Notes under the pieces: model-generated
Told to the model about the DNA's origin: nothing
Database searches by the model: none
The model's input: the letters and a program-made list of their open reading frames with translations, nothing else
Part shown: positions 19,881-45,138 of the stretch, piece by piece
How the letters are laid out: every line of letters starts with the position of its first letter
Position numbering within the stretch: position 1 is the stretch's first letter
From: Chryseobacterium indoltheticum
GTDB taxonomy: Bacteria > Bacteroidota > Bacteroidia > Flavobacteriales > Weeksellaceae
Assembly: GCF_003815915.1 (NCBI RefSeq)
Contig: NZ_CP033929.1
Span: forward strand, 1,736,001-1,800,000
Reading direction: 5' to 3'
Length of the DNA stretch: 64,000 nucleotides
Translations under genes and position numbers: made by a program

Positions 19881-20879
19881 ATGCTCTATATAAATGAATA
19901 TTCCAAGGCCTTAGATTTTTACAAAAAAATTGTTCCATGTTGGCTTAAAATAAAGATTCATGGAGTGTCACGAATTAAAGAAGGTGATCAGACCAAATGT
20001 ACATATTGTGATACAACGGAATGTGAAAATCTAAAAACTAAAAATCATAATTACTCTTTTGATGAATCAGTTAAAGATTTATTAAAGGTGGATATCATCG
20101 ACAAGCTATTGCTTAGTGAACCAAGAGATTTAGTGATTTTAACACAGCAGATAGATGCTGTTGTTTTGGAAGAGAAAGAAACTGTTGCCCTGGAAGATCT
20201 TTTTAAAAAATCGGGATATAAAACATTTTTTCAGACGAATAATGGAAGAGAATTTTTGAATCATTTAAACAGATCAACGTGTTCATACTGTAATAGAAAC
20301 TACACCATAAACATCACTTCAAAAAATGCATCAGCCCAATTGGATCATTGGTTTCCTAAAGACAAGTTTCCTTTTTTAGCTTTATCATTTTTTAATCTTA
20401 TTCCATCTTGCTCATCTTGTAATCATATGAAGGGTAATTCTGATAAAGATAAAGGTTGGTGGAGCACTACAGCACTCGATGAATTAATACATCCATATTT
20501 TGAAGAAGCAGATCATAAATTTAAATTTGATTTCAATTTTGAGAAAAGCACGAATAATCTTTTTGTTCTCTTTAGAGATGTAGAAGGAGACAAAACTATG
20601 AAAACTCTAAAATTTAATCTTACAAAAGAAATATATCAAGCTCATTCGGAATTAGAACTTAGAGACCTTTATGATTTGAGAAAAAAATATTCAAAAAATT
20701 ATTTAAAGTATTTATTGAAAATACTCCACAAACATGAACCCTCCGAAGCTGAAAAATATAGAATGCTTTTCAACGTGGAAAAAAATGAGAAAGATTATCA
20801 TAAACGACCATTTAGCAAATTTAAAAATGATATTATTGAACAATTACTAAAAATAGATAATAAGAAATCAAACTTATAA
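19881..20879 (+). CDS. HNH endonuclease, Septu-like PtuB
   Basis: The 332-residue protein carries an HNH nuclease domain at about residues 130-190: CSYCNRNYTIN, then LDHWFPKDKFPFLALSFFNL, then CSSCNHMKGN, giving a zinc-binding Cys set around the catalytic DH. An extra Cys motif (CTYCDTTEC) lies near residue 42. It starts 5 bases after the ATPase gene and is surely co-transcribed. By analogy with PtuB it would be the DNA-degrading effector held in check by the ATPase. The C-terminal 130 residues are helical and unrecognised. Confidence 0.72.
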   Translation: MLYINEYSKALDFYKKIVPCWLKIKIHGVSRIKEGDQTKCTYCDTTECENLKTKNHNYSFDESVKDLLKVDIIDKLLLSEPRDLVILTQQIDAVVLEEKETVALEDLFKKSGYKTFFQTNNGREFLNHLNRSTCSYCNRNYTINITSKNASAQLDHWFPKDKFPFLALSFFNLIPSCSSCNHMKGNSDKDKGWWSTTALDELIHPYFEEADHKFKFDFNFEKSTNNLFVLFRDVEGDKTMKTLKFNLTKEIYQAHSELELRDLYDLRKKYSKNYLKYLLKILHKHEPSEAEKYRMLFNVEKNEKDYHKRPFSKFKNDIIEQLLKIDNKKSNL

Positions 20880-21031
20880 AAGATAATACGTCAAGTTTTG
20901 TCGCATTATGAATATACCTTTGATATTTAATTCTGGCTAAGTATATCATTATATAATATTTTGATGAATTTTAGATTTGGCCAATTGTTTTTTAATAGGT
21001 AATTTTGTAAACAAATTTAGGGAGTATAATT

Positions 21032-22114
21032 ATGAAAGTAGTGTCTTTTTTTGCAGGTGCAGGAGGTTTGGATTTGGGTTTCGAGCAGGCGGGTTTTGAT
21101 GTTGTTTGGGCAAATGAATATGATAAGGATATTTGGGCAACATACGAGAAGAACCATACTCATACAATTTTAGATAAGCGAAGTATTGTCAATATCCCTT
21201 CAGATGAAGTTCCTGATTGCGATGGCATTATTGGAGGACCGCCTTGCCAAAGTTGGTCAGAGGCAGGTTCTAAGAAGGGTATTGCTGATAAGAGGGGACA
21301 GCTTTTTTATGAATTTATGCGAATTTTAGCAGATAAAAAGCCGAAATTTTTTTTAGCGGAAAATGTGTCGGGAATGTTATTACCAGCTCATAAAGAAGCT
21401 CTGGAAAACATTAAACAAATGTTTACAGAAATAGGATATGAATTATCTTTTGAACTTTTGAATGTATCAGATTATGGTGTGCCGCAAGATCGTAAGAGAG
21501 TTTTCTTTATAGGGTACCGTAAAGATTTAAAACGAAAATTTGTTTTTCCTAAAGGGACAACCAACGAAAATAAAGTGACTTTAGAAATGGCGATCGGTGA
21601 TTTGAAAAACTCTGCATTGCCCGCTAAAGAAGGGAATTTTACCAATGGAATAAAATGTAAAGTCCTTAACCATGAATACATGATAGGTGGTTTTTCTTCT
21701 ATTTATATGTCTAGGAATAGGGTGAGATCGTGGGATGAAGTTTCATTCACGATTCAGGCTGGTGGAAGGCATGCACCATTGCATCCGCAAGCACCAAAAA
21801 TGACTCTTGTTGCACAAGATGTACGTGAATTTAAAAAAGGTAAAGAGAAATTATACCGTAGGCTCAGTGTTCGTGAATGTGCACGCATCCAAACATTCCC
21901 GGATAATTTCAGTTTTGAGTATAAAAGTGTAGTTGCCGGGTATAAAATGATTGGGAATGCGGTACCTGTGGAAATGGGTAAAATATTGGCAGAAAAAATT
22001 TATTCAGACTTGAGTAGTCTAAAAACGAAGGAAGGCTTAAATAAGTTATCAAAAGTTAATGGCAATAATGTCATAGAAAAATTACAGGAAATAGTTAATA
22101 AAGTAACCGCATAA
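21032..22114 (+). CDS. DNA (cytosine-5-)-methyltransferase, M.HaeIII-like
   Basis: The 360-residue protein has all C5-methyltransferase motifs in order: FAGAGGLDLGF (motif I, residues 7-17), GGPPCQSWSE with catalytic Cys72 (IV), AENVSGM (VI), QDRKRVFFIG (VIII) and YKMIGNAVPV (X). Its similarity to M.HaeIII runs along the whole chain, including NHEYMIGGFSSIYMSRNRVR in the target-recognition region, so it probably methylates GGCC. It uses S-adenosylmethionine. The start at 2 to 8 bases after an AGGGAG sequence (21019-21024) has an unusually clear Shine-Dalgarno for this phylum. The next gene overlaps it by one base as ATAATGG and is the cognate nuclease. Confidence 0.93.
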   Translation: MKVVSFFAGAGGLDLGFEQAGFDVVWANEYDKDIWATYEKNHTHTILDKRSIVNIPSDEVPDCDGIIGGPPCQSWSEAGSKKGIADKRGQLFYEFMRILADKKPKFFLAENVSGMLLPAHKEALENIKQMFTEIGYELSFELLNVSDYGVPQDRKRVFFIGYRKDLKRKFVFPKGTTNENKVTLEMAIGDLKNSALPAKEGNFTNGIKCKVLNHEYMIGGFSSIYMSRNRVRSWDEVSFTIQAGGRHAPLHPQAPKMTLVAQDVREFKKGKEKLYRRLSVRECARIQTFPDNFSFEYKSVVAGYKMIGNAVPVEMGKILAEKIYSDLSSLKTKEGLNKLSKVNGNNVIEKLQEIVNKVTA

Positions 22115-23085
22115 TGGCAAAAATCGCAACTCAGACTATCAATGGAAAAGCATTTGAATATGCATTATTACTGGAATTTTACGAAAAATTAAAATTAGTA
22201 ACTAAAGTTTCAATAGTTGACAATGCTTCCTATAAAACAGCTTTAAGCTGTTTTGAAAGTTTTGGTGAAAAAGAAAGAAGCCAATATCGTTTAAACGCTA
22301 GTTTCTCAGTCAATTTTTTATTAGATCTAGAACCCAGACTTTCAAACGGTATCAATGAAGAAGATATTTTGGAACTTGAAATTGTAGCTGATAAAGCAGG
22401 ACAGTCAGGGGATGTTCGTGATGTCTTAGCAATAAGATCATTACAAAAATGGGAAATTGGAATTTCTGCTAAAAATAACCATCGTGCGGTTAAACATTCG
22501 AGACTATCAAATGATATTGATTTTGGCGAAAAGTGGTTGGGAACTCCTTGTTCAGAAAATTATTTTACAGTGATTAAGCCCATTTTTAATGGGCTAGCAC
22601 AATTAAGGAAAGAAAGTAAGGCTACTAAAACTTGGGCAAGTCTTGGAGATTATCATTCAACAGTCTACTTACCTATATTAAACGCATTCAGAGATGAATT
22701 GATTGCATTAGACCGGGACAATCCAGGAGTAGTCGCACAGAAGTTAGTCCAGTATTTAATCGGAAATCAGGATTTTTATAAAGTTATTAAAGGAAAAGGA
22801 AAAGTTGAAATTCAAGCGTATAATCTGCAAGGAACTTTAAATTTACCATTTGGTAACGTTAAGCCAAAAGCAAAGGTTCCCAAATTAAAACTTCCGACCA
22901 GGCTTATTGAAGTTGTGTATCAAAATAATTCTACAACAACATTGTTGGTGACGTTGAATGAAGGTTGGCAGATTTCATTTCGAATACATAATGCCAGCTC
23001 TAGGATAGAACCATCTCTAAAATTTGATATTAATTTGGTTTCTTCTCCACATACTTTGTTTGTGAATACATTATTTTTGGGATAA
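22114..23085 (+). CDS. HaeIII family type II restriction endonuclease
   Basis: The 323-residue protein belongs to the HaeIII restriction endonuclease family. The most family-like part is residues 98-145: GDVRDVLAIR, WEIGISAKNNHRAVKHSRLS and IDFGEKWLGTPCSENY, with further agreement at DYHSTVYLPILNAFRDEL. It should cut unmethylated GGCC. Its ATG overlaps the methylase stop codon (TAATG), so the two are translationally coupled, which lets the methylase appear first. No controller (C-protein) gene is seen. The specificity is inferred from the methylase and family, not from this protein alone. Confidence 0.88.
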   Translation: MAKIATQTINGKAFEYALLLEFYEKLKLVTKVSIVDNASYKTALSCFESFGEKERSQYRLNASFSVNFLLDLEPRLSNGINEEDILELEIVADKAGQSGDVRDVLAIRSLQKWEIGISAKNNHRAVKHSRLSNDIDFGEKWLGTPCSENYFTVIKPIFNGLAQLRKESKATKTWASLGDYHSTVYLPILNAFRDELIALDRDNPGVVAQKLVQYLIGNQDFYKVIKGKGKVEIQAYNLQGTLNLPFGNVKPKAKVPKLKLPTRLIEVVYQNNSTTTLLVTLNEGWQISFRIHNASSRIEPSLKFDINLVSSPHTLFVNTLFLG

Positions 23086-23158
23086 TGGCTAAATATATTT
23101 TTTAATATCTACAAAAAATATTTATTACAGTTTACTGTGAACTTCACATTAACTGTTT

Positions 23159-24649
23159 TTAAATAATTTTTCTCAAAGAATTAATGAAATTTTCAACTTC
23201 TACTGGATGATCTTTTTTCCATCTATTTAGTAACTTTGAATAGCCAGTACCAAAGTTTTTTTTATTAATTGGGTCGCTAAACCAATTTTTATGAGTACCT
23301 TTTCCTTCATTAGTATAGTCTTTAAAAGAAGTAATTTTTGTGAAGTTTTTGTCATCATCCCAAAATTCATCGGTATCCGATAGATTTTTTACGAACTCAT
23401 AAAAAATTGTTTCAGGTCTGTCTTCAAAAGGTAAAAATACTGCCTTATTAGGAGCTTTTTTTTGAGTAAACTTTCTTTTTACATCACCATCTAAAATAAA
23501 ACGAACATTCTTAAAGATTGTATGTTTGGACTCAGCCATACCGACAATAGTCATATCTGGAAATGGACCTTTTTCAACTTTAATCATTTTTTTTAAATCA
23601 GATCCATTAATGAGATTTTTAATCCAATATTCGGCTACATCATCTTCACATACAAAATTTATTTTATCGATTGTTTCCTCTTCAGCAACTTCACTTTTGA
23701 TTTTTCTCCTAATGTACTGAGCTGAAGGATTAATCAAATTTACAACCTTATTATTTTGTATGTTAAAATAGTTAATTTTTGTGTCTGAACCTAATTTGCT
23801 CTCCAAATAGTCTAAAATTTCTAACGAGTGTGTTGTAAAAACAATTTGAATATCTAATTTCTTAGCATATCTAAATAAAATGTCAACTAATTTGAATTGT
23901 GCGGCTGCATAAAGTGTGGCGTCTAATTCATCAATTAACAAAATCCCTCCTCTAAATTTTGCACCTAATTTTTTCTTGAGCATATCAAAAGAGATTAATG
24001 CAGAAATTATTTGCGAGATATTATCTTGTCCCGCTGAATTTCCTAAATGGCTAAATTCCGAAGTTTGTAAAGCTAATATCTTTTTATTGTATGATTTTAT
24101 GGGTTCGGGTTTTATATGTTCTCCAACAACAGCGAAAATTTCTTTTATTAAACTAGAATAAAGTTTTGAGTAATCTTCTAAATTTTTTAGATGTAATGTT
24201 GAGATTGAATTTTCTGTTGCTAATGGAATTAATCTTTTTAATCCTAGATAGATGACAGGATGGTCTAATGCTTTTCCTCTTCCATCAAAATCTGTTCTAT
24301 ATCTTTCAGCTGAAATTTCAGTTTTTTTTAGATGTCTTGTCTTAATTCTCTTTTGTTCTTCAAGTAAAGATTCTGATGGATTTTCGTAATGAAAAGTAAT
24401 GTCATACTCCTTATTATAATCATTCATAGGGCAAAATCTGAAAACATTTCTAAAGCTCTCTTTGTAATAACTATCTAATACTGTCTTATCTTTACCTTTA
24501 TAATCGCAGAGCTGTGCAATCCATCCTAGAATGGATGATTTGCCTGACCCATTAAGACCAGTTATAATAGTCATATATTGACCAAATTCTAAATTCTGTT
24601 TTTCTATATGTCTGAAATTTTCGATATAAAGATTTTTGAGTTTTATCAT
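23159..24649 (-). CDS. OLD-like AAA ATPase with a TOPRIM-like C-terminal half
   Basis: With the ATG at 24649 this is a 496-residue protein. The N-terminal ATPase has Walker A GLNGSGKS at residues 31-38 after IENFRHIEKQNLEF, Walker B ILLIDELDATLYAA near residue 235 and FTTHSLEIL near residue 275. The C-terminal half has a conserved glutamate in NFVCEDDVAEYWI (about residue 330) and an acidic pair in FILDGDVKRK (about residue 384), as expected of the TOPRIM nuclease of OLD family proteins. The frame extends 14 residues further upstream to 24691, but the ATG at 24649 gives the family start. It is convergent with the restriction genes and stands alone, like single-gene OLD systems. Confidence 0.65.
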   Translation of the reverse strand: MIKLKNLYIENFRHIEKQNLEFGQYMTIITGLNGSGKSSILGWIAQLCDYKGKDKTVLDSYYKESFRNVFRFCPMNDYNKEYDITFHYENPSESLLEEQKRIKTRHLKKTEISAERYRTDFDGRGKALDHPVIYLGLKRLIPLATENSISTLHLKNLEDYSKLYSSLIKEIFAVVGEHIKPEPIKSYNKKILALQTSEFSHLGNSAGQDNISQIISALISFDMLKKKLGAKFRGGILLIDELDATLYAAAQFKLVDILFRYAKKLDIQIVFTTHSLEILDYLESKLGSDTKINYFNIQNNKVVNLINPSAQYIRRKIKSEVAEEETIDKINFVCEDDVAEYWIKNLINGSDLKKMIKVEKGPFPDMTIVGMAESKHTIFKNVRFILDGDVKRKFTQKKAPNKAVFLPFEDRPETIFYEFVKNLSDTDEFWDDDKNFTKITSFKDYTNEGKGTHKNWFSDPINKKNFGTGYSKLLNRWKKDHPVEVENFINSLRKII

Positions 24650-25062
24650 TTGAATTATTTGTATAAAAGAAAGGGAAACACGAATGTACAAAATTTTGAT
24701 ATTTACTACACATTTTAATGAAAATTATAGTAAAAGATACCATGATGGAGTACAAGGAGGATATTTAAATACGCCATCTAATTTAAAAACAGATATTTCA
24801 TTTTTTAAATAATAGCTTTAGTACTTTAATTTTATAGCACTTCTTCAAAACATTCTAAAATCATCCAGATATGTACTTTTATAATTTAATAAATATTCTT
24901 AAAAGATCCTCAGTCACTTTTCAACTTTGGAATTCAAGGTCATCCAAAAAATCTTTATTTTTTTGGCCATAAAAGCATCAACGTATTAATTATTTGTTCT
25001 AAAAAAGTATTGATATAACAGAGTCATTAAGTTTTACAAAGAACATAATGAAGCTATTATTT
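24650..25062. other. intergenic region, no gene seen
   Basis: About 410 AT-rich bases between the OLD-like gene and the last gene of the DUF6119 operon. I see no open frame of natural composition on either strand, no strong hairpin and no tRNA. It must contain the promoter of the OLD-like gene and the end of the transcript of the upstream operon. Confidence 0.5.
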
Positions 25063-27830: not shown

Positions 27831-29615
27831 TTATCTAATTTGTGATATGTCAATCACATTAAATTTAAAAGTGTTGTAATTCAACACCTCTCTGGCTGTC
27901 TGAACTAAAGAAAATAGAGCGATATTTGATGCGCTTTTACTAAGTTTTCCTACAGCATCGTCATTAATATAAGAGTAATTGTTATATGCCATCACAAAAT
28001 TTATAGTTAAATCTTTGTCTCTTATTTTCTTCAAAATATCATCTGAATTTAATTTTTGACCATCTGTCTTATCATTGTAAATGGCAATGGTATCCTTAAG
28101 ATATGTACTTCCGTCGATATTATTTATGTCATGCCATAATCTTTGAGAAGCCAGTACAATTTGATTGTATAAGCTTCGCATATTAGTATTAAAACCATCT
28201 TTTACATGTATTAGATACATTGTGCTCTCGGCATAGTACATAATGTCGCATAACTCTATATTATCAGTAAATTTTTTATCAAAAACGTAATAGTTCTCCT
28301 CACTATGATTAAGATTATAAAGATCCTCGTTAGCTTGATTCCACGGTTTTAAAATTCTTTCTTTTAGCTCATAAAGCTCATAGTCATTTATGGCTTCTTC
28401 TCTAATTTGTGACAGATAGTTATTATCGAGTTTAAACCATGTGTTATCAGTTCTAAAATATTTGCCATCATTCAACGTAATCTCAGTAACGAGGTGATTA
28501 TAGAAATAGTCAAATGTCTCTTCTTTCGAGTCTATAATACCAATTAAAGACAGTTGATTGATTTTATCTACAATTTCTTTTCTATCCGAAATATTTTCTA
28601 AGCTATTATATATTTGTTTCGTGATGTTAAAATAAAGATCATTGCGAGATGTCAATTGTAAGTCAGTCTTTTTTTTCTTACGAAAAAAATGTAATCTGAA
28701 TATATTACATTCATAAAATTTTTCAATCTGCTTACTATTTACAATTTCTACAATATCATATTCAGATTTTTTTATATTTTCTGGTTGATCGTGCATTAAA
28801 ATATGTTCAATTATTTTTTCTAATAAGCTATTGCGAAGGTCTTCTAATATATTAGAATCTTTAACCCTGTTAAACAAACTAAGATTTTTATAATTGCTGG
28901 TATCTCCTAAAATTTTCTCAATGGTAATAATCAATTTTTTAAGTTCTTCAAAATTTATTTTTTTTCTCAAACTAAAATATGAACCTAAATCCATTATTGA
29001 ACTTTCATCATCAAGATTAAATTCTCTGAAAATTCCATCTCGCAATTCTTTTCTTACAACCACCTTTATTTTTTTAGGTATTTCAGAATATAAAAGTGAA
29101 TCTTTAATTGATTGGCTGTAATTAAATGTGTTACTTCTTTGCGAAAGGTTTCCTGTGACTCCTCTAGTATTGATAGAGATGGTAATATCATCATTCAAAC
29201 TAGCGAAATGCTGGTATAATTCTATCCCAAAATAATTATCTAAGTATTTTTTAATTACCGTTATTCCGGATCCGCTGGTAACACAATACAATTTGCCTTT
29301 ATAACAGATAAAAAGGACATGAGAAAATTCGATTAAATCAAAATTTTGATCTTTTGCTAGCTCTTCGGGTAAAAAATATTTCCAGTAATTTTGATCCTTA
29401 GTTTGATTATAGCAGTAGCTGTAAAAATAAAAATCCTCGTCCTCTATTTCTTGGATGGGGTATTTAAACTGTTCAAAATCTTTATCCGAAGCGTGTAAAT
29501 GGTTTTTATGATTTTTAGTTATTGTTTTTATCACTTCGTCTAAATCTTTATTCCTGAGCTCGTAATGTTGAAGATCAATAGAGAAAATTTTTAAATTAAA
29601 TTTTAGATCTATCAT
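27831..29615 (-). CDS. DUF6119 / TIGR04141 family sporadically distributed protein
   Basis: The 594-residue protein agrees with the TIGR04141/DUF6119 family, a set of large proteins scattered through bacterial accessory islands with no known activity. The diagnostic part is residues about 95-190: SHVLFICYKGKLYCVTSGSG, then ISINTRGVTGNLSQRSN, then YSQSIKDSLLY. A second conserved region near the C-terminus reads MYLIHVKDGFNTNMRSLYNQIVLA. The chain is soluble. It lies 48 bases downstream of the first gene and 60 bases upstream of the HEPN-like gene. A sensor or regulatory role in a multi-gene defence system is inferred from the neighbourhood. Confidence 0.75.
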   Translation of the reverse strand: MIDLKFNLKIFSIDLQHYELRNKDLDEVIKTITKNHKNHLHASDKDFEQFKYPIQEIEDEDFYFYSYCYNQTKDQNYWKYFLPEELAKDQNFDLIEFSHVLFICYKGKLYCVTSGSGITVIKKYLDNYFGIELYQHFASLNDDITISINTRGVTGNLSQRSNTFNYSQSIKDSLLYSEIPKKIKVVVRKELRDGIFREFNLDDESSIMDLGSYFSLRKKINFEELKKLIITIEKILGDTSNYKNLSLFNRVKDSNILEDLRNSLLEKIIEHILMHDQPENIKKSEYDIVEIVNSKQIEKFYECNIFRLHFFRKKKKTDLQLTSRNDLYFNITKQIYNSLENISDRKEIVDKINQLSLIGIIDSKEETFDYFYNHLVTEITLNDGKYFRTDNTWFKLDNNYLSQIREEAINDYELYELKERILKPWNQANEDLYNLNHSEENYYVFDKKFTDNIELCDIMYYAESTMYLIHVKDGFNTNMRSLYNQIVLASQRLWHDINNIDGSTYLKDTIAIYNDKTDGQKLNSDDILKKIRDKDLTINFVMAYNNYSYINDDAVGKLSKSASNIALFSLVQTAREVLNYNTFKFNVIDISQIR

Positions 29616-29663: not shown

Positions 29664-30863
29664 TTAAGAAGTTGCATTTTCAAAAATCTCTATTCCATTT
29701 AAAATTTCTGTAGACTCTAAAATCTGACTAACAGTGAAATGTCTTATGTGTCCTTTTCGCAGAAGACAATTCGAAACAAGAAAGATCTGATCCGAATTAG
29801 ATTCCTGATCTGTATAAGGTTCTTTATATATTAGTTTAATAATTCGGGTAGTTATTTTGTTGGATTTGTCTCTATACTTTATTAAATAATATTCATTTTC
29901 AGTGAATATATTTGCAGTTATAGGACGGAAAATTGTTTTGTATCGTGGATAGATTTGTCCAAAAATTATTGCTTTTTGAGTAAAGTCATCTAGGCTAACA
30001 TTTTTTCTAATATCACCTAAAGGATATGATGCCGTTCTTTGTTTCATGTAATCGAAGGCACTAAGTTTATAATAATAATGATTAAATATAAGTTCAGTAG
30101 GCTTTATAATTGTATTACCAACTAATCTTGATGAATCTTCTAGTTCAACATCATTTTTTAGATCAATAATGATGTAACCATTTTCATTAATTCCTGAGCT
30201 AATAATCTCAAGATCACTTGTCTGATTTTTGACTATTCCTAAAATTACACTTGGTATCAGCTCTTCAGAATAGGATGAAGTTTTAGGATTATACCATTTA
30301 CACTTAAACATATATTTTGATAAATCCTTTTCAACAAAACTTTCTTTTGTTGACGAGTACTTTTTCTCTTCTTTATTTTTAACAATGTCTATAACGGTCA
30401 TTACAGGCGGTAAAAACTCAAGGTGATTGTTTTCTTTATTCGTACGAATTCCATCTGAGCTATCAATGAAAATCTTTTTTTTATTAAGTTCAAAATCAAC
30501 GCTTTTTATACAGACAAGTTTATTTAGAAGAGACTCCTTAAGAAATTCTAAGTCAAAATTTTCTATATTAATCAATTTCTCAATATCAAGATATGTATAG
30601 TCAGATTCAAGTTTTTTTATTTGCTCAGCTTTGATCCATTTATCAATATATTTTCCATCTTTAGTGGAATAATAATAACATCTAAGTTGAATTTCAGACT
30701 GTCTACCGTTTAACGGATTGTATTCATCTTTATTTAAGATTTCTCCCACAATCATAATTGGTGGTGTCATTTCTGCATTTGCAGCAATTTTAATATTTTG
30801 ATTTTTATTAAAATAGGGATGATTTTGAAGACAGACAAAATCTCCAATGGAAAAAGTGATCAT
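29664..30863 (-). CDS. tandem-repeat beta protein with YodC/DUF2158-like units, first gene of the operon
   Basis: The 399-residue protein contains two copies of a short beta unit. The first (residues about 4-85) reads GDFVCLQNHPYF, then PPIMIVGEI, then QLRCYYYSTKDGKYIDKWI. The second (about 111-208) reads LVCIKSVDFE, then PPVMTVIDI, then MFKCKWYNPKTSSYSEELIP. The pattern of G-D-x-V, P-P-x-M-x-V and C-x-W/Y recalls the small DUF2158/YodC fold. The remaining 190 residues are unrecognised. It is the promoter-proximal gene of the five-gene run and is divergent from the reverse transcriptase RNA, with a TAnnTTTG box 28 bases upstream of its start. Confidence 0.5.
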   Translation of the reverse strand: MITFSIGDFVCLQNHPYFNKNQNIKIAANAEMTPPIMIVGEILNKDEYNPLNGRQSEIQLRCYYYSTKDGKYIDKWIKAEQIKKLESDYTYLDIEKLINIENFDLEFLKESLLNKLVCIKSVDFELNKKKIFIDSSDGIRTNKENNHLEFLPPVMTVIDIVKNKEEKKYSSTKESFVEKDLSKYMFKCKWYNPKTSSYSEELIPSVILGIVKNQTSDLEIISSGINENGYIIIDLKNDVELEDSSRLVGNTIIKPTELIFNHYYYKLSAFDYMKQRTASYPLGDIRKNVSLDDFTQKAIIFGQIYPRYKTIFRPITANIFTENEYYLIKYRDKSNKITTRIIKLIYKEPYTDQESNSDQIFLVSNCLLRKGHIRHFTVSQILESTEILNGIEIFENATS

Positions 30864-30884
30864 TAGTAATTATTTTCGTGGTTA

Positions 30885-30918
30885 TTGTCACAAATATAAG
30901 AATTATTTCATATTTTTG
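30885..30918. promoter_or_regulatory. divergent promoter pair between the DUF6119 operon and the RT non-coding RNA
   Basis: On the plus strand, TTG (30885-30887) and TATTTTTG (30911-30918) are spaced 23 bases apart, as in Bacteroidota -33/-7 promoters, and point to a transcript start at about 30923. On the minus strand, TATATTTG (30898-30891) would start transcription about 22 bases before the operon's first codon. The boxes overlap, so the two units may compete. Confidence 0.5.
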
Positions 30919-30920
30919 AG

Positions 30921-31296
30921 ATGCTTGCAAAAAGAAGTGTAATTACGACTAGAATAAGATAAAAGGTCTTTTAGATTTACTTATAACAAGAGGGTTATAA
31001 GGTTAGAGAATTTCATCGAAGGCTCACCGAAAGGACAGCCCGATAGAAAGGAAATCAGTAGCAATTTACTAAGAATTATTGAAACTACCAAAAGGGTAAC
31101 TTTATTTATTAACTTTATCATCTTTGTCTTCATAATTTATCAGTTTGACTATTAGCTCGGCTATTACAGTCTCAGCTATGCTTAATACTATTTCCACCAA
31201 TTACGGAATTATCAATGACTCAATATTAATAATTTGGGTACTTATCTGAGCGAAAGCTGTATGTAATTATAAAACGTTATTGATTTTTGCAAGCAT
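30921..31296 (+). ncRNA. candidate non-coding RNA associated with the defence reverse transcriptase
   Basis: ATGCTTGCAAAAA (30921-30933) and TTTTTGCAAGCAT (31284-31296) are perfect 13-bp inverted complements that would close a 376-base RNA ending 5 bases before the RT start codon. Inside are CTTATAAC/GTTATAAG (30980-30987/30994-31001), GGCT...CC-GAAA-GG...AGCC (31021-31040), TACC/GGGTA (31087-31098), TAGCT/AGCTA around 31154-31178 and AGC-GAAA-GCT near 31249-31258. The promoter-like boxes place the transcript start at the first arm. Defence RTs of the DRT2 and DRT9 kinds use such an upstream RNA as template or cofactor. A stop-free frame of 65 codons runs through 30958-31152. Confidence 0.6.
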
Positions 31297-31301
31297 TTTT
31301 T

Positions 31302-32912
31302 ATGATTGAAAAACCAACTTGGCTTAAAGAAAAAGGCTATTTACATATTTCACCATCTCTTAAAATAGGAGATGAATGGGAAAATTATTATCGTCTCATT
31401 ACTAATGAAAAATTTGTTGAAAAATATGCATTCTATCCGCTTATCCATACAAATATAATAGACAGAAAATATAAAAAAGCAGATCCTCAAAAGCACAGGA
31501 CCACGGGAAGAAAGCATTGTCATACTTTACATAAAAAAGGTAAGCCGGAAAAATCACATAAGATGAGACCTTTGCATTATGCAAGTCATATGGATGCTTT
31601 AGTATACGGTTACTATAAGGAGATTCTTGATGAGCTTTATGAGAAAAAATTAAACGAAAATTCAAAACTTGACGCAGCCGTAAATGCATATAGAAAAATT
31701 CAAATATCAGAAAAGGATATAAAAGGAAAAAGCACAATACATTTTGCAAAGGAAGCGTTTGATGAAATTAAGAAAAGGGGAGAGTACGATGAAGTCTGTG
31801 TCTTAACTTTTGATTTAAAAAGTTTTTTTCCAAGTTTAAATCATCAATTCCTTAAGCAAAAATGGAAATGGCTTTTAGATGTTGATGAGCTTCCAAAAGA
31901 TCATTATAATGTCTTTAAAGCCTGTACTAAATTTAGATATGTATTGCTTGATGACCTAAGAATCAGAAATGATAGAAATGGGAGAAAATCGGGTTTTGAT
32001 GAATCAAAACTTGCACAGATCAGAAAGGAAAAAGGCTATAAATGTTTTTTCGAAAGTAATGAGGAATTTAGAAGAACAATTAGCGAGGGTAAATTACGTG
32101 TATATAAAAATCCTTTTTATTCAGATGAAAAAATCAGTGTTGGAATTCCCCAAGGATTACCAATAAGCGCTCTATTAGCGAACTTATATCTGTATGATTT
32201 CGACTTAAAAATAATAAATGAACTTGTTGAAGATAGGGATGTATATTATAAAAGGTATTCTGATGATATAGTGGTTGTTTGTAAGCCCAACCAAGCAGAG
32301 TATATTGAGAAGTATATTTATGCTTTGATCAAAGATAGTAAAGTGAAGATTAGCGAAAATAAAACCGAAAAATTTATTTTCAGGAAAGTTACTTTCTCTC
32401 CAAAACATGATGACAAAAGGTTAGCATGCTTTAAGATAGATAAAAAATCTAAGAAAGAGATTGAAACACCATTATTATATTTGGGATTTGAATTTAGAGG
32501 TTACAAAACTGTTATTAAATCCGCTAATTTATCCAGATATTACAGGAAGATTATTTCCATTACCAAACGCAGATGCGCTAGAGCTAAAAGGGTTTTAGAT
32601 AAAAATCCCGAAGCAAAAAGAGCTGTTTTTATAAATCAAATTAAAAAACTGTACAATAGACCATTAAAAATAAATGATTCCGAAAGGTCTGATAAAAAAG
32701 GTCTGAGAAGGAAATTTAGCAAATTGCAAAAGAATGAAAAAGGTTTTTATGACTTTGCTCATTATTCTCCTAAGGATCACAAAAAAGAATCTAATTATTA
32801 TTCTTATGTCAAAAGATGTTGTACAATTTTTAAGGAAGAACATATAATGAATCAAATAAGAAAGCGAAAGCATATAGTATATAAGTGCATTGATAAACAT
32901 CTCAATTCCTAA
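31302..32912 (+). CDS. defence-type (UG/DRT) reverse transcriptase, Drt2-like
   Basis: With the ATG at 31302 the protein has 536 residues. RT motif A is VLTFDLKSFFPSLN (Asp171), motif B is SVGIPQGLPISALLANLYL (residues 279-297) and the catalytic YSDD is at 319-322. No maturase or endonuclease domain is present, which argues against a group II intron. Before the RT core is a stretch GYLHIS, YAFYPLIHT and KMRPLHYASHMDALVYGYY, which I associate with DRT2-type RTs, but the subtype is from memory and uncertain. The frame opens at a TTG at 31287 inside the inverted repeat. The ATG is the better start. It follows the candidate RNA directly and converges on the retron RT. Confidence 0.78.
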   Translation: MIEKPTWLKEKGYLHISPSLKIGDEWENYYRLITNEKFVEKYAFYPLIHTNIIDRKYKKADPQKHRTTGRKHCHTLHKKGKPEKSHKMRPLHYASHMDALVYGYYKEILDELYEKKLNENSKLDAAVNAYRKIQISEKDIKGKSTIHFAKEAFDEIKKRGEYDEVCVLTFDLKSFFPSLNHQFLKQKWKWLLDVDELPKDHYNVFKACTKFRYVLLDDLRIRNDRNGRKSGFDESKLAQIRKEKGYKCFFESNEEFRRTISEGKLRVYKNPFYSDEKISVGIPQGLPISALLANLYLYDFDLKIINELVEDRDVYYKRYSDDIVVVCKPNQAEYIEKYIYALIKDSKVKISENKTEKFIFRKVTFSPKHDDKRLACFKIDKKSKKEIETPLLYLGFEFRGYKTVIKSANLSRYYRKIISITKRRCARAKRVLDKNPEAKRAVFINQIKKLYNRPLKINDSERSDKKGLRRKFSKLQKNEKGFYDFAHYSPKDHKKESNYYSYVKRCCTIFKEEHIMNQIRKRKHIVYKCIDKHLNS

Positions 32913-33027: not shown

Positions 33028-34125
33028 CTAAGATTCTTTTTGACCGGCACGAATTTGAAGTAGAATCTCTAATGCTTGTGTACTTCTTAAAACAGAATTT
33101 TCACCAACATCGTTTAATTTTTTGTAATATTTTTTGGCGAACTGAGGCTCAATTGATTGAATGAAGTGCAGCCAACCATACAGTCTATTGCGAGTGTTAG
33201 TTACTTCATCCCCTAATTTACTTAAAAAACCTAAATCTTTAGGATCTTCTCCTCTCGCAATTAGTCTATGCTTTGCATGTGCAGTATATCCAAATTTAGT
33301 AATGCAATTAATTTCTAAACGAATATTCTTTTTTCTATTTTTTGAAATTCTCGGAGAATGTGAGTCAAAAATCGTTAGTCCTGTTACGAATTGCTTTTGT
33401 CCCCTTTTCATGAATTTAGTTTTCTTTTCGTTGAGTAAAAAACCGTATTTTTCAACTGCTAATTGTATGTCATCGAGAGGTAATATATCTGTATTTGATG
33501 AAAAGTACAAATCATCAGCATACCTCGAATATCTAATATTACTACCACAAAGACTCTTTAACTCCTCATCTAGCGAATGTGTTACTATGTTTGCTAGAGT
33601 TGGACTTGTGCAAAAACCTTGAACAAGCTGATTCTCGATAGTTGTGATTTTAGCAATCCATAGTGCAACATTATCCTTAAATCCCAGTTTCTTTAGACTA
33701 TTTGTAACCATACTCTCTGTAATTGTTTCAAAATAATCTTTAATATCAACTGATAAGACAATCTTTTTTTCTAAATGACATTCTGCATTTGATCGAATAT
33801 TTTTTCCTTTAACAAAGCCATGAACCATTTCTGAAGGTTGATGAATTTTTACAAGATAATGATTAAGAATTTTTAGTGTATTATTTAATTTTGCTGTCCA
33901 AACTCTATGAACTGTTCGAAATCCTCCGTTCTGTCCCTTTTTTCTTAAATTAAATCTATCTACAAGGATTTTATTGCTGGTTAATGCCGAACGCAATTCT
34001 TCTATATTACGTCTATCTAAATTACGAATGAAATAATCATCTTCTATAATTTTTTCTATAAATTCTAAATCGCATCTTAGATAGTTTGCTAAATCCTGCT
34101 TAGTAATTAATTCGGAATGTTTCAT
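33028..34125 (-). CDS. retron reverse transcriptase
   Basis: The 365-residue protein shows retron-specific features: NAECH at residues 113-117 (the NAxxH motif), motif A VDIKDYFETI with Asp127, QGFCTSPTLANIV (169-181), the catalytic YADD at 202-205, and VTGLTIF at 247-253 (the VTG motif) followed by a basic linker. Length and order agree with retron RTs, which prime reverse transcription of a structured RNA (msr-msd) from an internal guanosine and give RNA-linked DNA. An 81-base structured RNA sits directly upstream and a DUF3800 gene before that, in one orientation, so the three form a cassette. The neighbouring RT is convergent, 115 bases from its 3' end. Confidence 0.85.
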   Translation of the reverse strand: MKHSELITKQDLANYLRCDLEFIEKIIEDDYFIRNLDRRNIEELRSALTSNKILVDRFNLRKKGQNGGFRTVHRVWTAKLNNTLKILNHYLVKIHQPSEMVHGFVKGKNIRSNAECHLEKKIVLSVDIKDYFETITESMVTNSLKKLGFKDNVALWIAKITTIENQLVQGFCTSPTLANIVTHSLDEELKSLCGSNIRYSRYADDLYFSSNTDILPLDDIQLAVEKYGFLLNEKKTKFMKRGQKQFVTGLTIFDSHSPRISKNRKKNIRLEINCITKFGYTAHAKHRLIARGEDPKDLGFLSKLGDEVTNTRNRLYGWLHFIQSIEPQFAKKYYKKLNDVGENSVLRSTQALEILLQIRAGQKES

Positions 34126-34141
34126 CGTTTTAAAATAAAGA

Positions 34142-34222
34142 AGTGGGTGTCAGATAAGATAAGATTGAAATGTTTTGTAACCGAGTACGAAATCGTACTC
34201 AAAGTTTATCTGTACACCCACT
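34142..34222 (-). ncRNA. candidate retron msr-msd RNA (or part of it) between DUF3800 and RT
   Basis: On the plus strand AGTGGGTGTCAGATAA (34142-34157) is complementary to TTATCTG-T-ACACCCACT (34206-34222), giving a 16-bp closing stem with one bulged base. Inside is a perfect 8-bp hairpin, GAGTACGA/TCGTACTC (34183-34200). The structure fills the gap between the DUF3800 stop codon and the RT and overlaps that stop. Retron RNAs are flanked by such complementary a1/a2 segments. It is short for a complete msr-msd, and there is no T run to make it a terminator, so it may be a minimal form or only part of the RNA. Confidence 0.5.
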
Positions 34223-34964
34223 AAAAATTTTTTATAAGATTTTGTAAAGATACTTGAAATTCCTCTTTTTTTTGTCTTGAAAAAAAAATATTATTGTGAG
34301 AATAATTGACTAAAGCAATTTTTGGAGCAACTAAGTTAAAATTAGATTTCATTCTGGGATATGGAGTAGTCTCGGTGAATATATGATAGAAAAGAAAGTT
34401 TAGATAATCTATAATAGCAAGATTTTCTTCTTCTTTGCCAACTATATGAAACTCACATTCAATTCTTCCGACATAATTTGAGAAAAAATTATTTAAAATG
34501 GTTTTCAACGATTTCTTCTTTAGTTCAATCGTTTCGAAGAAAAATATGTTTTTGTCATTTTTATGCGATTCTACTCGGTCTCTTAATAATTTTGTTAGAG
34601 AGTAGGCGAAAAACTCAGATTCATCCATAATCCGCATTTTTTCTATGAAGAAATCATTGCTTTTATTAGTGATAACGAAATATGCTCTATAATCTAACAA
34701 AGGTAGTATCTTGTAGACTTCCGTACGAACATCCATGTTATTTTCCGTTGCGTGAAAGCCTTGTTTCAGAATTTTATTTTTAATTTCCTCGTAGTATAGA
34801 GAACTTTCAATATCGGTTTTTAGGCAAAGTAAAGCATCTGTTATTGTTTGTGGGCTATCTGTCTTGATACACCCGTGTATGAAAATATTGGAGTTATTAT
34901 TAATATTTCCTGACTCATCAATATAAAAGTAATTGATTTTTTTATCTCCATATGAATTTATCAT
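34221..34964 (-). CDS. DUF3800 domain protein, probable retron effector
   Basis: The 247-residue protein starts with the DUF3800 signature INYFYIDESGNINNNSNIFIHGCI (residues about 10-33), where the DESG acidic motif marks an RNase H-like fold, and has a later acidic pair in the FFFETIELKKK stretch near residue 147. DUF3800 proteins recur in defence loci and I recall them as the effector of type VII retrons. The exact type number should be checked. It ends within the structured RNA that precedes the RT, so all three belong to one transcript. A nuclease activity released on infection is inferred. Confidence 0.72.
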   Translation of the reverse strand: MINSYGDKKINYFYIDESGNINNNSNIFIHGCIKTDSPQTITDALLCLKTDIESSLYYEEIKNKILKQGFHATENNMDVRTEVYKILPLLDYRAYFVITNKSNDFFIEKMRIMDESEFFAYSLTKLLRDRVESHKNDKNIFFFETIELKKKSLKTILNNFFSNYVGRIECEFHIVGKEEENLAIIDYLNFLFYHIFTETTPYPRMKSNFNLVAPKIALVNYSHNNIFFSRQKKEEFQVSLQNLIKNF

Positions 34965-43323: not shown

Positions 43324-43599
43324 TTACTGAATTTCATACAGTTGACTTACACACGATGTTCCATTGTTAATTTGGAATAATTCATGGTTTTCAGAACCGT
43401 CATTCCAGGTACAAATCGCACCGATTACTGGCGAACATCGTTTCTCAGTCAGAATACATTTTTCGGACGGTGCCGATTCGTTGTAAAAGTATCCCTGCAT
43501 TTCTGCAGTCTTAGTTTCAAATGCTGTTCCAGCATACGCACTTCCGGCACCCAATAAAAGGATTGCTACAGGCAATGCGATTTTTCTCATTTTTTTCAT
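43324..43599 (-). CDS. DUF6520 family small secreted protein
   Basis: The 91-residue protein has a signal peptide (KIALPVAILLLGAGSAYAGT) and a mature part of about 67 residues with several cysteines (CILTEKRCSPVIGAICTW, then NGTSCVSQLYE). This is the plan of the DUF6520 family in Flavobacteriia, small exported peptides of unknown role usually found next to MauE-type membrane proteins and TlpA-like redox proteins. It ends a minus-strand operon, 24 bases from the MauE-like gene. Four cysteines would suit disulfide formation by a redox partner. Confidence 0.7.
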   Translation of the reverse strand: MKKMRKIALPVAILLLGAGSAYAGTAFETKTAEMQGYFYNESAPSEKCILTEKRCSPVIGAICTWNDGSENHELFQINNGTSCVSQLYEIQ

Positions 43600-43623
43600 G
43601 ATGTTGAAATTTGATATTGTTGC

Positions 43624-45138
43624 CTACTCTTTTTGAAGGTTTTCGGCATTTCCCTTAATGAAATGTTGAGACAGGTTCTGCGCAAAACGGTATCTCACGA
43701 TTTCATTTCCTATCAATACAATAAAGTACTGATCAGTTACCTGAAACTGAATTTTTTTTATTTCTTTTGGTTTTGGAATATAAAAGCTTCCGATGTATTT
43801 CTGCTCAAGAGTAGAGTACACGTCGATAACTGCTGAAGTATTCCACATTTCCCTGCTTTCATCCCGCCCGATCAAATTTGATTCATTGAACAAAAGACCG
43901 TATTGAACAAAAGATTTTTTGTTGACCGCCAGTGGAGGATGATTCATTTTTCTTCTGCCGTCAGATAGTTTTGAAATATCGATCTTCGGCTGACTGATTG
44001 TATCAATTGTTTTGTACGTTGCTTTCAGGTTCATAGCCTTGCCCATCACAATGACCTCATTTTTGTAATAATGAACGTACACCAGTTGCTGGTTGTTACA
44101 GTCGTAGTGCAACTGTCCGTCGGTTTCAAAAACTGGATCTTTGTGATTTTTTAGAAGATCGGGCTTTATCAACAAACTTTCATGCGACTCAGGAAACAGC
44201 AATCCTAAAGACTGGGTTTTTCTCGGTGCGTAAAAAGTACTGAGAGAAAAGGAATTTTCATCCATATTCACCAACTGGCTGAAATATGCCTGACCGTAAC
44301 TCAGTGTTTGCGCATTTTTTTGACCGATGATTCCCCTGTAAATTACAGGTACTGATCCGTCATACAGATAGTAGTATTTTCCGTTGACCTGAAATTGTGC
44401 ACGTTTGAACTGGTAGCTACGTACATCAGGAATGACTTTTAATTCTTTTACATCTTTAAAATCAATATCCATTGATGTCAATGTAAACGGAGTAGTGTAA
44501 TTTCCCAAATAGATCGAATCTTTGGTCGTCCCTGCAAAATAATAAGAATTAAATCCAAGATTTAACCTTTTTTCCTGCTTCAGAGGATGCTGCAAAAATC
44601 GTCTCGTAAAATTGTTTTCCTTTTTGATAATATACTCAGATCTCTGATACAAAACTATTATTGATGAACCACTTACAACCGTCAGTACCAATAACCAAAG
44701 CGAAGTTTTTTGAACGGATTTCTTACTTTCGGCACTTTGAAGAAATATGGCCACCGCTGCCAATATTACTGTTGCAATATTGAAGATCAAATGGGTTTTC
44801 CAATCCATATCCTCCAAAATACCTCCACACGAGCAGGGAATAAAATCACTGTAGTTCAAGATCAGATATATGTAAACCGTGAACGCTATCATCAAAACAA
44901 AAGAACAGTACAAACCGAGTCTTCTTGTTTTTTCAAAAACCAGCACACTGCTCACCAATAGTTCTATGATCAATACACTGTAAGAAACGATATCTGCAAA
45001 TGCACTGAGCAAAGGGGATTGAGCGATCTGAATTTGGAAATTTTCGAAGTCCAATATTTTACTGATGCTTGCATAGCAGAACAGCAGTATAAAAAAATAA
45101 CTTACGATTTCTACAAATCTTGTTTTGATGGTATTCAT
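43624..45138 (-). CDS. MauE/DoxX-like membrane protein with a large extracytoplasmic domain
   Basis: The 504-residue protein starts with four to five membrane helices (about residues 9-25, 46-66, 77-94, 116-135 and 145-165) with the MauE-like motif SKILDFENFQIQIAQSPLL near residue 26 and PCSCGG near residue 101, a Cys pair usual in redox-active MauE proteins. The rest (about residues 190-500) is soluble, beta-rich and probably periplasmic. MauE-type proteins support disulfide chemistry of exported proteins. The DUF6520 gene downstream encodes a Cys-containing exported peptide and is the likely partner. The C-terminal domain is not identified. Confidence 0.7.
   Translation of the reverse strand: MNTIKTRFVEIVSYFFILLFCYASISKILDFENFQIQIAQSPLLSAFADIVSYSVLIIELLVSSVLVFEKTRRLGLYCSFVLMIAFTVYIYLILNYSDFIPCSCGGILEDMDWKTHLIFNIATVILAAVAIFLQSAESKKSVQKTSLWLLVLTVVSGSSIIVLYQRSEYIIKKENNFTRRFLQHPLKQEKRLNLGFNSYYFAGTTKDSIYLGNYTTPFTLTSMDIDFKDVKELKVIPDVRSYQFKRAQFQVNGKYYYLYDGSVPVIYRGIIGQKNAQTLSYGQAYFSQLVNMDENSFSLSTFYAPRKTQSLGLLFPESHESLLIKPDLLKNHKDPVFETDGQLHYDCNNQQLVYVHYYKNEVIVMGKAMNLKATYKTIDTISQPKIDISKLSDGRRKMNHPPLAVNKKSFVQYGLLFNESNLIGRDESREMWNTSAVIDVYSTLEQKYIGSFYIPKPKEIKKIQFQVTDQYFIVLIGNEIVRYRFAQNLSQHFIKGNAENLQKE

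Follow-up and report, generated by a model that had tools for sequence, protein, structure and literature searches.

The RNA encoded upstream of the DRT2-family reverse transcriptase (RT) studied here appears to hide a gene in circularly permuted form. This locus (L003) lies in a 64-kb stretch of DNA, hereafter the window, and together with its five nearest relatives makes up what we call the window clade (L003–L008). The system is ordinary in kind, i.e. a DRT2, and unusual in that five of the six loci have no endless reading frame at any of the boundaries tested and all six have a finite frame of similar length across one junction between template copies. From the sequences we infer that L003–L008 carry a circularly permuted finite gene for a hydrophobic peptide, which copying would multiply into a series of identical genes that overlap one another. 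We lean slightly towards the view that this DRT2 lineage has dropped the endless frame, its cDNA being a row of overlapping finite genes for a membrane peptide of 68–73 residues, and we consider it reasonably probable that the locus is a three-part phage-defence system of the DRT2 family, consisting of the RT, an upstream template RNA with a finite permuted gene and a divergent YodC/WYL-like protein.

As described in passages of PMC11100668 and PMC12039810, Klebsiella DRT2 jumps between short ACA repeats while copying the central template of its RNA and so produces cDNA made of tandem repeats; this cDNA is transcribed antisense into neo, a stop-free frame made by the junctions, from a promoter whose two boxes are split by the junction. 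The same passages report that defence was lost when a stop was placed close to the end of one repeat, and a finite product was therefore unexpected. Units were divisible by three and stop-free in 42 of 42 close Klebsiella-type homologues according to a passage of PMC12039810; for DRT2 clades that are more divergent, a passage of PMC11100668 calls the annotation of Neo challenging, suggesting other mechanisms.

Judged by profile searches and a predicted structure, the RT is a diverged member of the broad DRT2 (UG2) family. PADLOC assigns it to Drt2 (2.1e-123 and 3.6e-74; next family RT_UG17, 1.9e-24), and the Klebsiella DRT2 RT (9c0i) is its best PDB relative by sequence (1.1e-34, RT residues 7–453) as well as its best fold relative (Foldseek 1.5e-22, TM 0.58 by query length, with an RT model pLDDT of only 72). 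The preliminary description had left the subtype unclear and thought of a new RT lineage, which the Drt2 match and the closeness of 9c0i exclude; the protein, for which it noted the absence of maturase and nuclease parts, has 536 residues from the ATG at 31302, and Pfam gives only RVT_1 (E 0.01). The NCBIfam Drt2 model NF041746 scores 299.1 bits (E 6e-89), below its curated cut-off of 390 bits, so the RT falls outside this narrow equivalog and is not classed as KpnDRT2-type. The YSDD active site is invariant in 25 aligned RTs (L003 plus 24 of 120 listed homologues). RT homologues occur in 21 of 173 genomes of the genus Chryseobacterium, in 31 of 320 of the family (the same 21 included), in 14 of 395 of the order, in 21 of 398 of the genus of genome G599 (E 1e-60) and in 9 of 345 of the class (E 1e-40), these genome sets overlapping. 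Named protein relatives come from Chryseobacterium, Flavobacterium, Kaistella and Myroides, and among the protein matches listed at least 22 have at least 68% identity, some of them being loci compared here. No further finite-clade locus was found in viral contigs, and no DNA match among plasmids or phages; a protein search of plasmids with the RT gave 33 matching records, all below 60% identity.

The RT gene is preceded by an RNA (Table 1) whose 5′ part and 3′ scaffold, the latter with ATGACTC, are conserved and flank a variable middle. Its two ends form a perfect 13-bp inverted repeat with 350 nt between the arms and a total span of 376 nt (30921–31296), the 3′ arm ending 5 bases upstream of the RT ATG. 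This repeat, noted in the preliminary description, is confirmed: a perfect 13-bp inverted repeat with a spacing of at least 150 nt arose in none of 500 dinucleotide shuffles of 30880–31301 (longest 12, mean 8.1). The −33/−7 boxes claimed in front of it are likewise present and constitute what we take, by the Bacteroidota promoter consensus, to be a Bacteroidota-type promoter, and the two GAAA-loop hairpins reported there were found again, one at 31249–31258 in the 3′ scaffold and the other within the template.

Table 1. Features of the locus, with positions in the window
Feature	Position	Strand	Basis
Divergent partner, 399 aa, PADLOC RTasWYL-YodC; predicted WYL-like domains 214–298 and 313–396	29664..30863	−	PADLOC, fold search
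ncRNA promoter boxes, TTG 30885–30887 and TATTTTTG 30911–30918, spacer 23	30885..30918	+	sequence; scan score 8/10
5′ arm of terminal panhandle, ATGCTTGCAAAAA	30921..30933	+	sequence, arm comparison
Long-range covarying stem, 5′ strand, pairs with 31242–31247	30957..30962	+	RNAalifold consensus, 19 loci
Hairpin immediately 5′ of template, CTTATAAC/GTTATAAG	30980..31001	+	fold, alignment
Inferred template (repeat unit), 190 nt; AATT repeat, copy 1 opening at 31009 and copy 2 starting at 31199	31009..31198	+	hand-placed from homology
Permuted ORF part 1 (putative), ATG at 31133, 41 codons + 2 nt to junction	31009..31133	−	inferred
Candidate cDNA-sense promoter, TTTG-N20-TAAATTGC, 52 nt before junction	31061..31092	−	score 8/10, chance level here
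Permuted ORF part 2 (putative), junction 31198 to stop TAA 31104–31102, other frame, 32-nt overlap with part 1	31102..31198	−	inferred
Conserved 3′ scaffold of ncRNA, with ATGACTC and GAAA-loop hairpin	31199..31298	+	alignment, consensus fold
3′ arm of terminal panhandle, TTTTTGCAAGCAT	31284..31296	+	sequence, arm comparison
DRT2-family RT, 536 aa, YSDD residues 319–322	31302..32912	+	PADLOC, NCBIfam, PDB, Foldseek

The fold of the single RNA reaches −77.7 kcal/mol against a shuffle mean of −68.2 (n = 100; z −2.2) and one shuffle was equally good, so that folding by itself is only mildly unusual. Across lineages the panhandle arms vary and their complementarity is kept. In an arm-swap test on L003 and 18 other loci, near copies excluded, the end-to-end duplex averaged −24.6 kcal/mol with the locus's own partner versus −13.3 with the arm of another locus, and 7 of 342 swapped pairs reached the own-pair median; the arms having been picked as the best own duplex, these figures are biased towards the own pair. 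The RNAalifold consensus of the non-template parts of the 19 loci is modest in energy (−7.4) and contains a hairpin and a covarying long-range stem (30957–30962/31242–31247) with G-C, A-U and U-A exchanges and 0–2 mismatches per pair. The two tests named in the preliminary description, a conserved inverted repeat in orthologues and covariation in the stems, thus both came out in its favour. Its picture of a DRT-type architecture stands as far as it concerns a defence RT and, upstream of it, an RNA of the template type; it had overlooked the frames hidden in the template and the conserved divergent partner gene. At gathering thresholds Rfam had no match for the upstream RNA, its sole match in the window being a DUF805b RNA motif elsewhere (43621–43656, minus strand, 42.3 bits), which precedes a small ORF (43324–43599).

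The template boundaries were taken over from relatives, for which we used Bacteroidota DRT2 loci L009–L017, L024–L029, L033–L035 and L046–L055. In these loci the variable middle is flanked on both sides by a short repeat, in most cases ATTTA or TTTA. With the jump set at this repeat, 26 of the 26 relatives with a placed site yield units of 102–165 nt that are divisible by three and contain a stop-free frame; none of the 26 belongs to the window clade, near copies are counted among them, and eight joined the set only once the rule existed. Jump sites were placed by hand throughout: a simple automatic rule agreed with the final placement for 5 of 10 newly added clade loci, for 11 of 24 earlier loci and for no locus of the window clade (0 of 6). 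When the boundaries of the 26 endless loci were shifted by a few bases, 27–51 of 153 neighbouring pairs were still endless, and shuffled templates of endless loci yielded at least one endless pair in 4–40% of cases per locus. The least certain of the 26 placements are L034, where one motif choice leaves remainder 1 and a finite frame and the other an endless one, and L035, where the motif sits 7 nt off its usual place. In L049 the shared TTTA starts one base inside the chosen sites and the tabulated motif length is 0. Two further loci, L047 (without ATGACTC) and L048 (without an assigned motif), remained unplaced, and each has one cDNA-strand frame open across the template region. As a separate observation, L034, L035 and L055 form a subgroup whose frame terminates exactly where the 5′ jump motif lies (all three end in LPK), and these loci are endless only with a jump at an inner or shifted motif copy.

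Among eight compared template pairs all four gap runs are 3 nt long; third-position enrichment is absent in eight endless-locus pairs, with 85, 58 and 84 differences by codon position (P 0.14). The RT genes of L009 and L010 are 93% identical and their 3′ scaffolds 99%, their templates 52%, and L012 and L013 have similar flanks (RT and scaffold) around middles of 117 and 141 nt. As the alignments have it, the variable middle is a cassette exchanged between conserved 5′ and 3′ parts, and both pairs look like natural template swaps.

Two Klebsiella-like control loci were searched with the ACA motif. In Psychrobacter (L045) one ACA pair fell within the length range and gave an endless unit of 105 nt; in Photobacterium (L044) none of nine pairs was endless. 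The motif ATACC yielded endless units of 150, 150, 153 and 150 nt in the distant Bacteroidota loci L020, L021, L030 and L032 and no endless unit in L041, which also belongs to the distant Bacteroidota. In eight further distant Bacteroidota loci (L018, L019, L031 and L036–L040) there were 1–17 endless motif pairs each, and no site was picked. L022, L023, L042 and L043 were excluded as fragments or partial, and L056–L069 were left unplaced.

In the studied locus the positions equivalent to the relatives' jump motif carry AATT; ACA pairs were listed in the L044 and L045 controls only. The resulting units of L003–L008 measure 190, 190, 190, 196, 196 and 196 nt, all leaving remainder 1 on division by three. 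None of 153 neighbouring boundary pairs gives an endless frame in any of the six loci, and in five of them, L003 included, none of 10,800 boundary pairs (120 × 90 positions) does. In L007, 227 of the 10,800 are endless, and the first one found has its 3′ boundary inside the template. Instead, an ORF crosses the junction, with 73, 73, 73, 69, 68 and 69 codons in L003–L008; at 190 nt and remainder 1 the frame of L003 closes after 73 codons. By ORF and unit lengths, this ORF ends past the start of the next ATG copy, by 32 nt in L003–L005 and 11–14 nt in L006–L008. Shuffled sequences reached the length of the crossing ORF in 0, 3 and 5 of 2000 cases for L003, L006 and L007, respectively. An alternative junction at TTA with remainder 0 was tried for the window clade and rejected: the ORF stops just past that junction, and it is AATT that aligns with the relatives' motif.

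Of the three frames, only the linked one is free of stops from the junction to the ATG in both subclades. Variable columns in this region fall on codon positions one to three as 1, 1, 5 in L003–L005 and 2, 3, 4 in L006–L008, giving the third position a share of 5/7 and 4/9; in ORF part 1 past the overlap, the counts of 2, 0, 1 and 5, 6, 8 carry little signal (a first count over these frames omitted the 33 nt that follow the ATG). The codon evidence for a permuted ORF is modest. Templates of L003–L005 are 95–97% identical versus 79–90% for their RT genes, and those of L006–L008 85–93% versus 83–85%, i.e. hardly above; neither subclade has template indels. The finite clade comprises six loci with two template types, and since these types are only about 50% identical (L003/L006), their shared frame arithmetic comes close to a replication. 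In the RT tree, which was midpoint-rooted and has some long branches, L003–L008 form one branch (100/99) beside the endless L028 and L033. The finite product is predicted to be hydrophobic (GRAVY 0.22–0.88, best 19-residue window 1.74–2.61), the same measures being 0.51–1.72 and 1.36–2.64 for the endless units. A search of 173 genomes of the genus Chryseobacterium (E 0.001) returned no full-length match to the 73-aa product, and three of them hold both of its pieces in reversed order.

On the cDNA strand, a match resembling TTTG-N20-TAnnTTTG ends 52–57 nt before the junction in all six window-clade loci, scoring 8–10 out of 10, and a similar one lies 41–57 nt before the junction in several other loci. 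Over 32 loci the stretch 20–100 nt before the junction scored 6–10, with 10 in L008, L010 and L046 only and poor values (6–7) in some. In 18 loci the best scores were 7–10 on the cDNA strand and 7–8 on the opposite strand, and P by shuffling ranged from 0.005 (L008, L010) to 0.99 (L012, L024). Among the 18 loci scanned, L003 included, the best match crosses the junction only in L025, at chance level; a cDNA-strand promoter, if real, would by this sequence scan lie whole within each unit, and it would then be useful only because the jump places it upstream of the start codon. The candidate in L003–L005 does not rise above chance level, nor does it outscore the chromosomal match before the ATG, except in L004 (9 vs 8). 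In L006–L008 the best score before the ATG is 7/10 on the chromosome versus 9, 9 and 10 in the array.

A WYL/YodC gene lies upstream in all relatives searched for it (L009–L017, L024–L029, L033–L035). Alignments of the partner protein to the WYL regulators PafBC, DriD, BrxR and CapW cover single WYL domains only. The fold list held no match to an HTH, from which the absence of one does not follow, and our literature search found no WYL or YodC partners of UG2. The WYL-like partner may have a sensing role. Directly downstream of it is a DUF6119/TIGR04141 gene (27831–29615, minus strand). The window also contains a defence island. A second RT system adjoins the locus (33028–34964, minus strand), with a retron type VII-A2 RT (PADLOC 3.3e-145) and a DUF3800_VII gene (2.5e-102); the 98-nt stretch between these two genes has a fold z of −6.6 and long closing arms and is probably the retron RNA. 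Further defence-type genes lie at 19881–24691, namely an HNH protein, a C5 methylase with a HaeIII-type restriction enzyme, and an AAA ATPase.

We propose that the RT binds the RNA scaffold and, upon infection, would copy the 190-nt template. At the template 5′ end the cDNA end could re-anneal to the second copy of the end motif at the 3′ end, where copying would restart, and a long head-to-tail cDNA would arise and turn double stranded. On the chromosome the antisense start codon stands in the wrong order with respect to the rest of its own frame; each array junction would link the ATG frame to the second, stop-ended frame, and would probably also bring a promoter in front of the start codon. 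The array would then amount to a row of identical genes with a 32-nt overlap each, and the membrane-prone peptide made from it may arrest the infected cell.

Other readings of the same frames have to be weighed against this permuted gene. The cDNA itself could be the effector, or the template could have decayed, the open frames being residual. We regard this as unlikely: the 50% identity of L003 and L006 templates and the weak codon-position signal in window-clade and endless loci alike speak for it, but the frame relations are equal in two diverged template types over six species, the templates of L003–L005 are more alike than their RT genes, and shuffling produced the finite ORF in only 0–5 of 2000 cases. 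Rather unlikely, in our estimate, is an ordinary small antisense gene, in which the ATG at 31133 opens a linear hydrophobic ORF of 50 codons (stop 30983–30981) and the ncRNA acts as its antisense partner, similarly to a type I toxin–antitoxin pair, with a secondary template role. This ORF is open in all six clade loci with corresponding start and stop (49–50 codons), its tail runs across the hairpin without a stop, a public set contains a predicted protein that matches the L008 copy exactly (P0121, the sole match among 111 candidates), and in L003–L005 the chromosomal promoter match before the ATG scores 8/10. Its stop, however, sits in a hairpin conserved as RNA, and it explains neither the open frame before the ATG, whose first 12 codons in L006–L008 are without ATG, GTG and TTG, nor the endless frames of the 26 placed relatives; the promoter scores of L006–L008, lower on the chromosome than in the array, also count against it.

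That our boundaries are wrong, the true window-clade junction making a different product, strikes us as improbable. The motif is just 3–4 nt long in this clade, the automatic rule picked other sites there, and Klebsiella jumping is described in passages of PMC11100668 and PMC12039810 as adding one nucleotide. Yet one nucleotide more gives a crossing ORF of 50–64 codons, one nucleotide less shortens it to 44 codons (L003–L005) or abolishes it (L006–L008), and the corresponding jump site works in all 26 placed relatives. Finally, the frame could be endless after all if ribosomes shifted by +1 in the overlap at each turn, yielding one repetitive protein as in Klebsiella. Both frames are indeed open over the overlap, so that ribosomes shifting by +1 ahead of the stop would regain the ATG frame, but the plain reading of the window-clade frames requires no shift and the placed relatives retain units divisible by three; we hold this to be very improbable.

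Under the permuted-gene reading, the system resembles KpnDRT2 (neo) in RT family and fold, with 9c0i as best match, in the layout of the upstream ncRNA, where the template lies in the centre between a 5′ part and a 3′ scaffold, and in a frame that is hidden antisense in the template and predicts a hydrophobic product. It differs in its jump motif (AATT/ATTTA-like versus ACA), in a candidate promoter lying whole inside the unit rather than split by the junction, in a unit of 190/196 nt that is not divisible by three and a finite ORF in place of an endless neo, in the divergent WYL/YodC gene and in RT length (536 versus 425 aa). The Bacteroidota relatives share the scaffold with ATGACTC (except L047) and, in those tested, the panhandle; unlike L003–L008, their 26 placed units are divisible by three and stop-free. 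DRT9 and DRT10 are likewise UG RTs that make ncRNA-templated repetitive cDNA, in their case homopolymers or short tandem repeats, and no encoded gene is described in the relevant passages of PMC12632851. In the literature searched, no published description of finite neo frames was found.

Once another jump motif is assumed, stop-free frames emerge in 26 loci of one diverged clade, and a sister group comes to light in which the frame must end. The natural cassette swaps reveal exchangeable RNA parts. If the permuted gene is real, gene assembly by template jumping would be independent of endless translation, and permutation alone would be enough to hide a harmful gene in RNA. Whether length or assembly is the essential feature thereby becomes directly testable.
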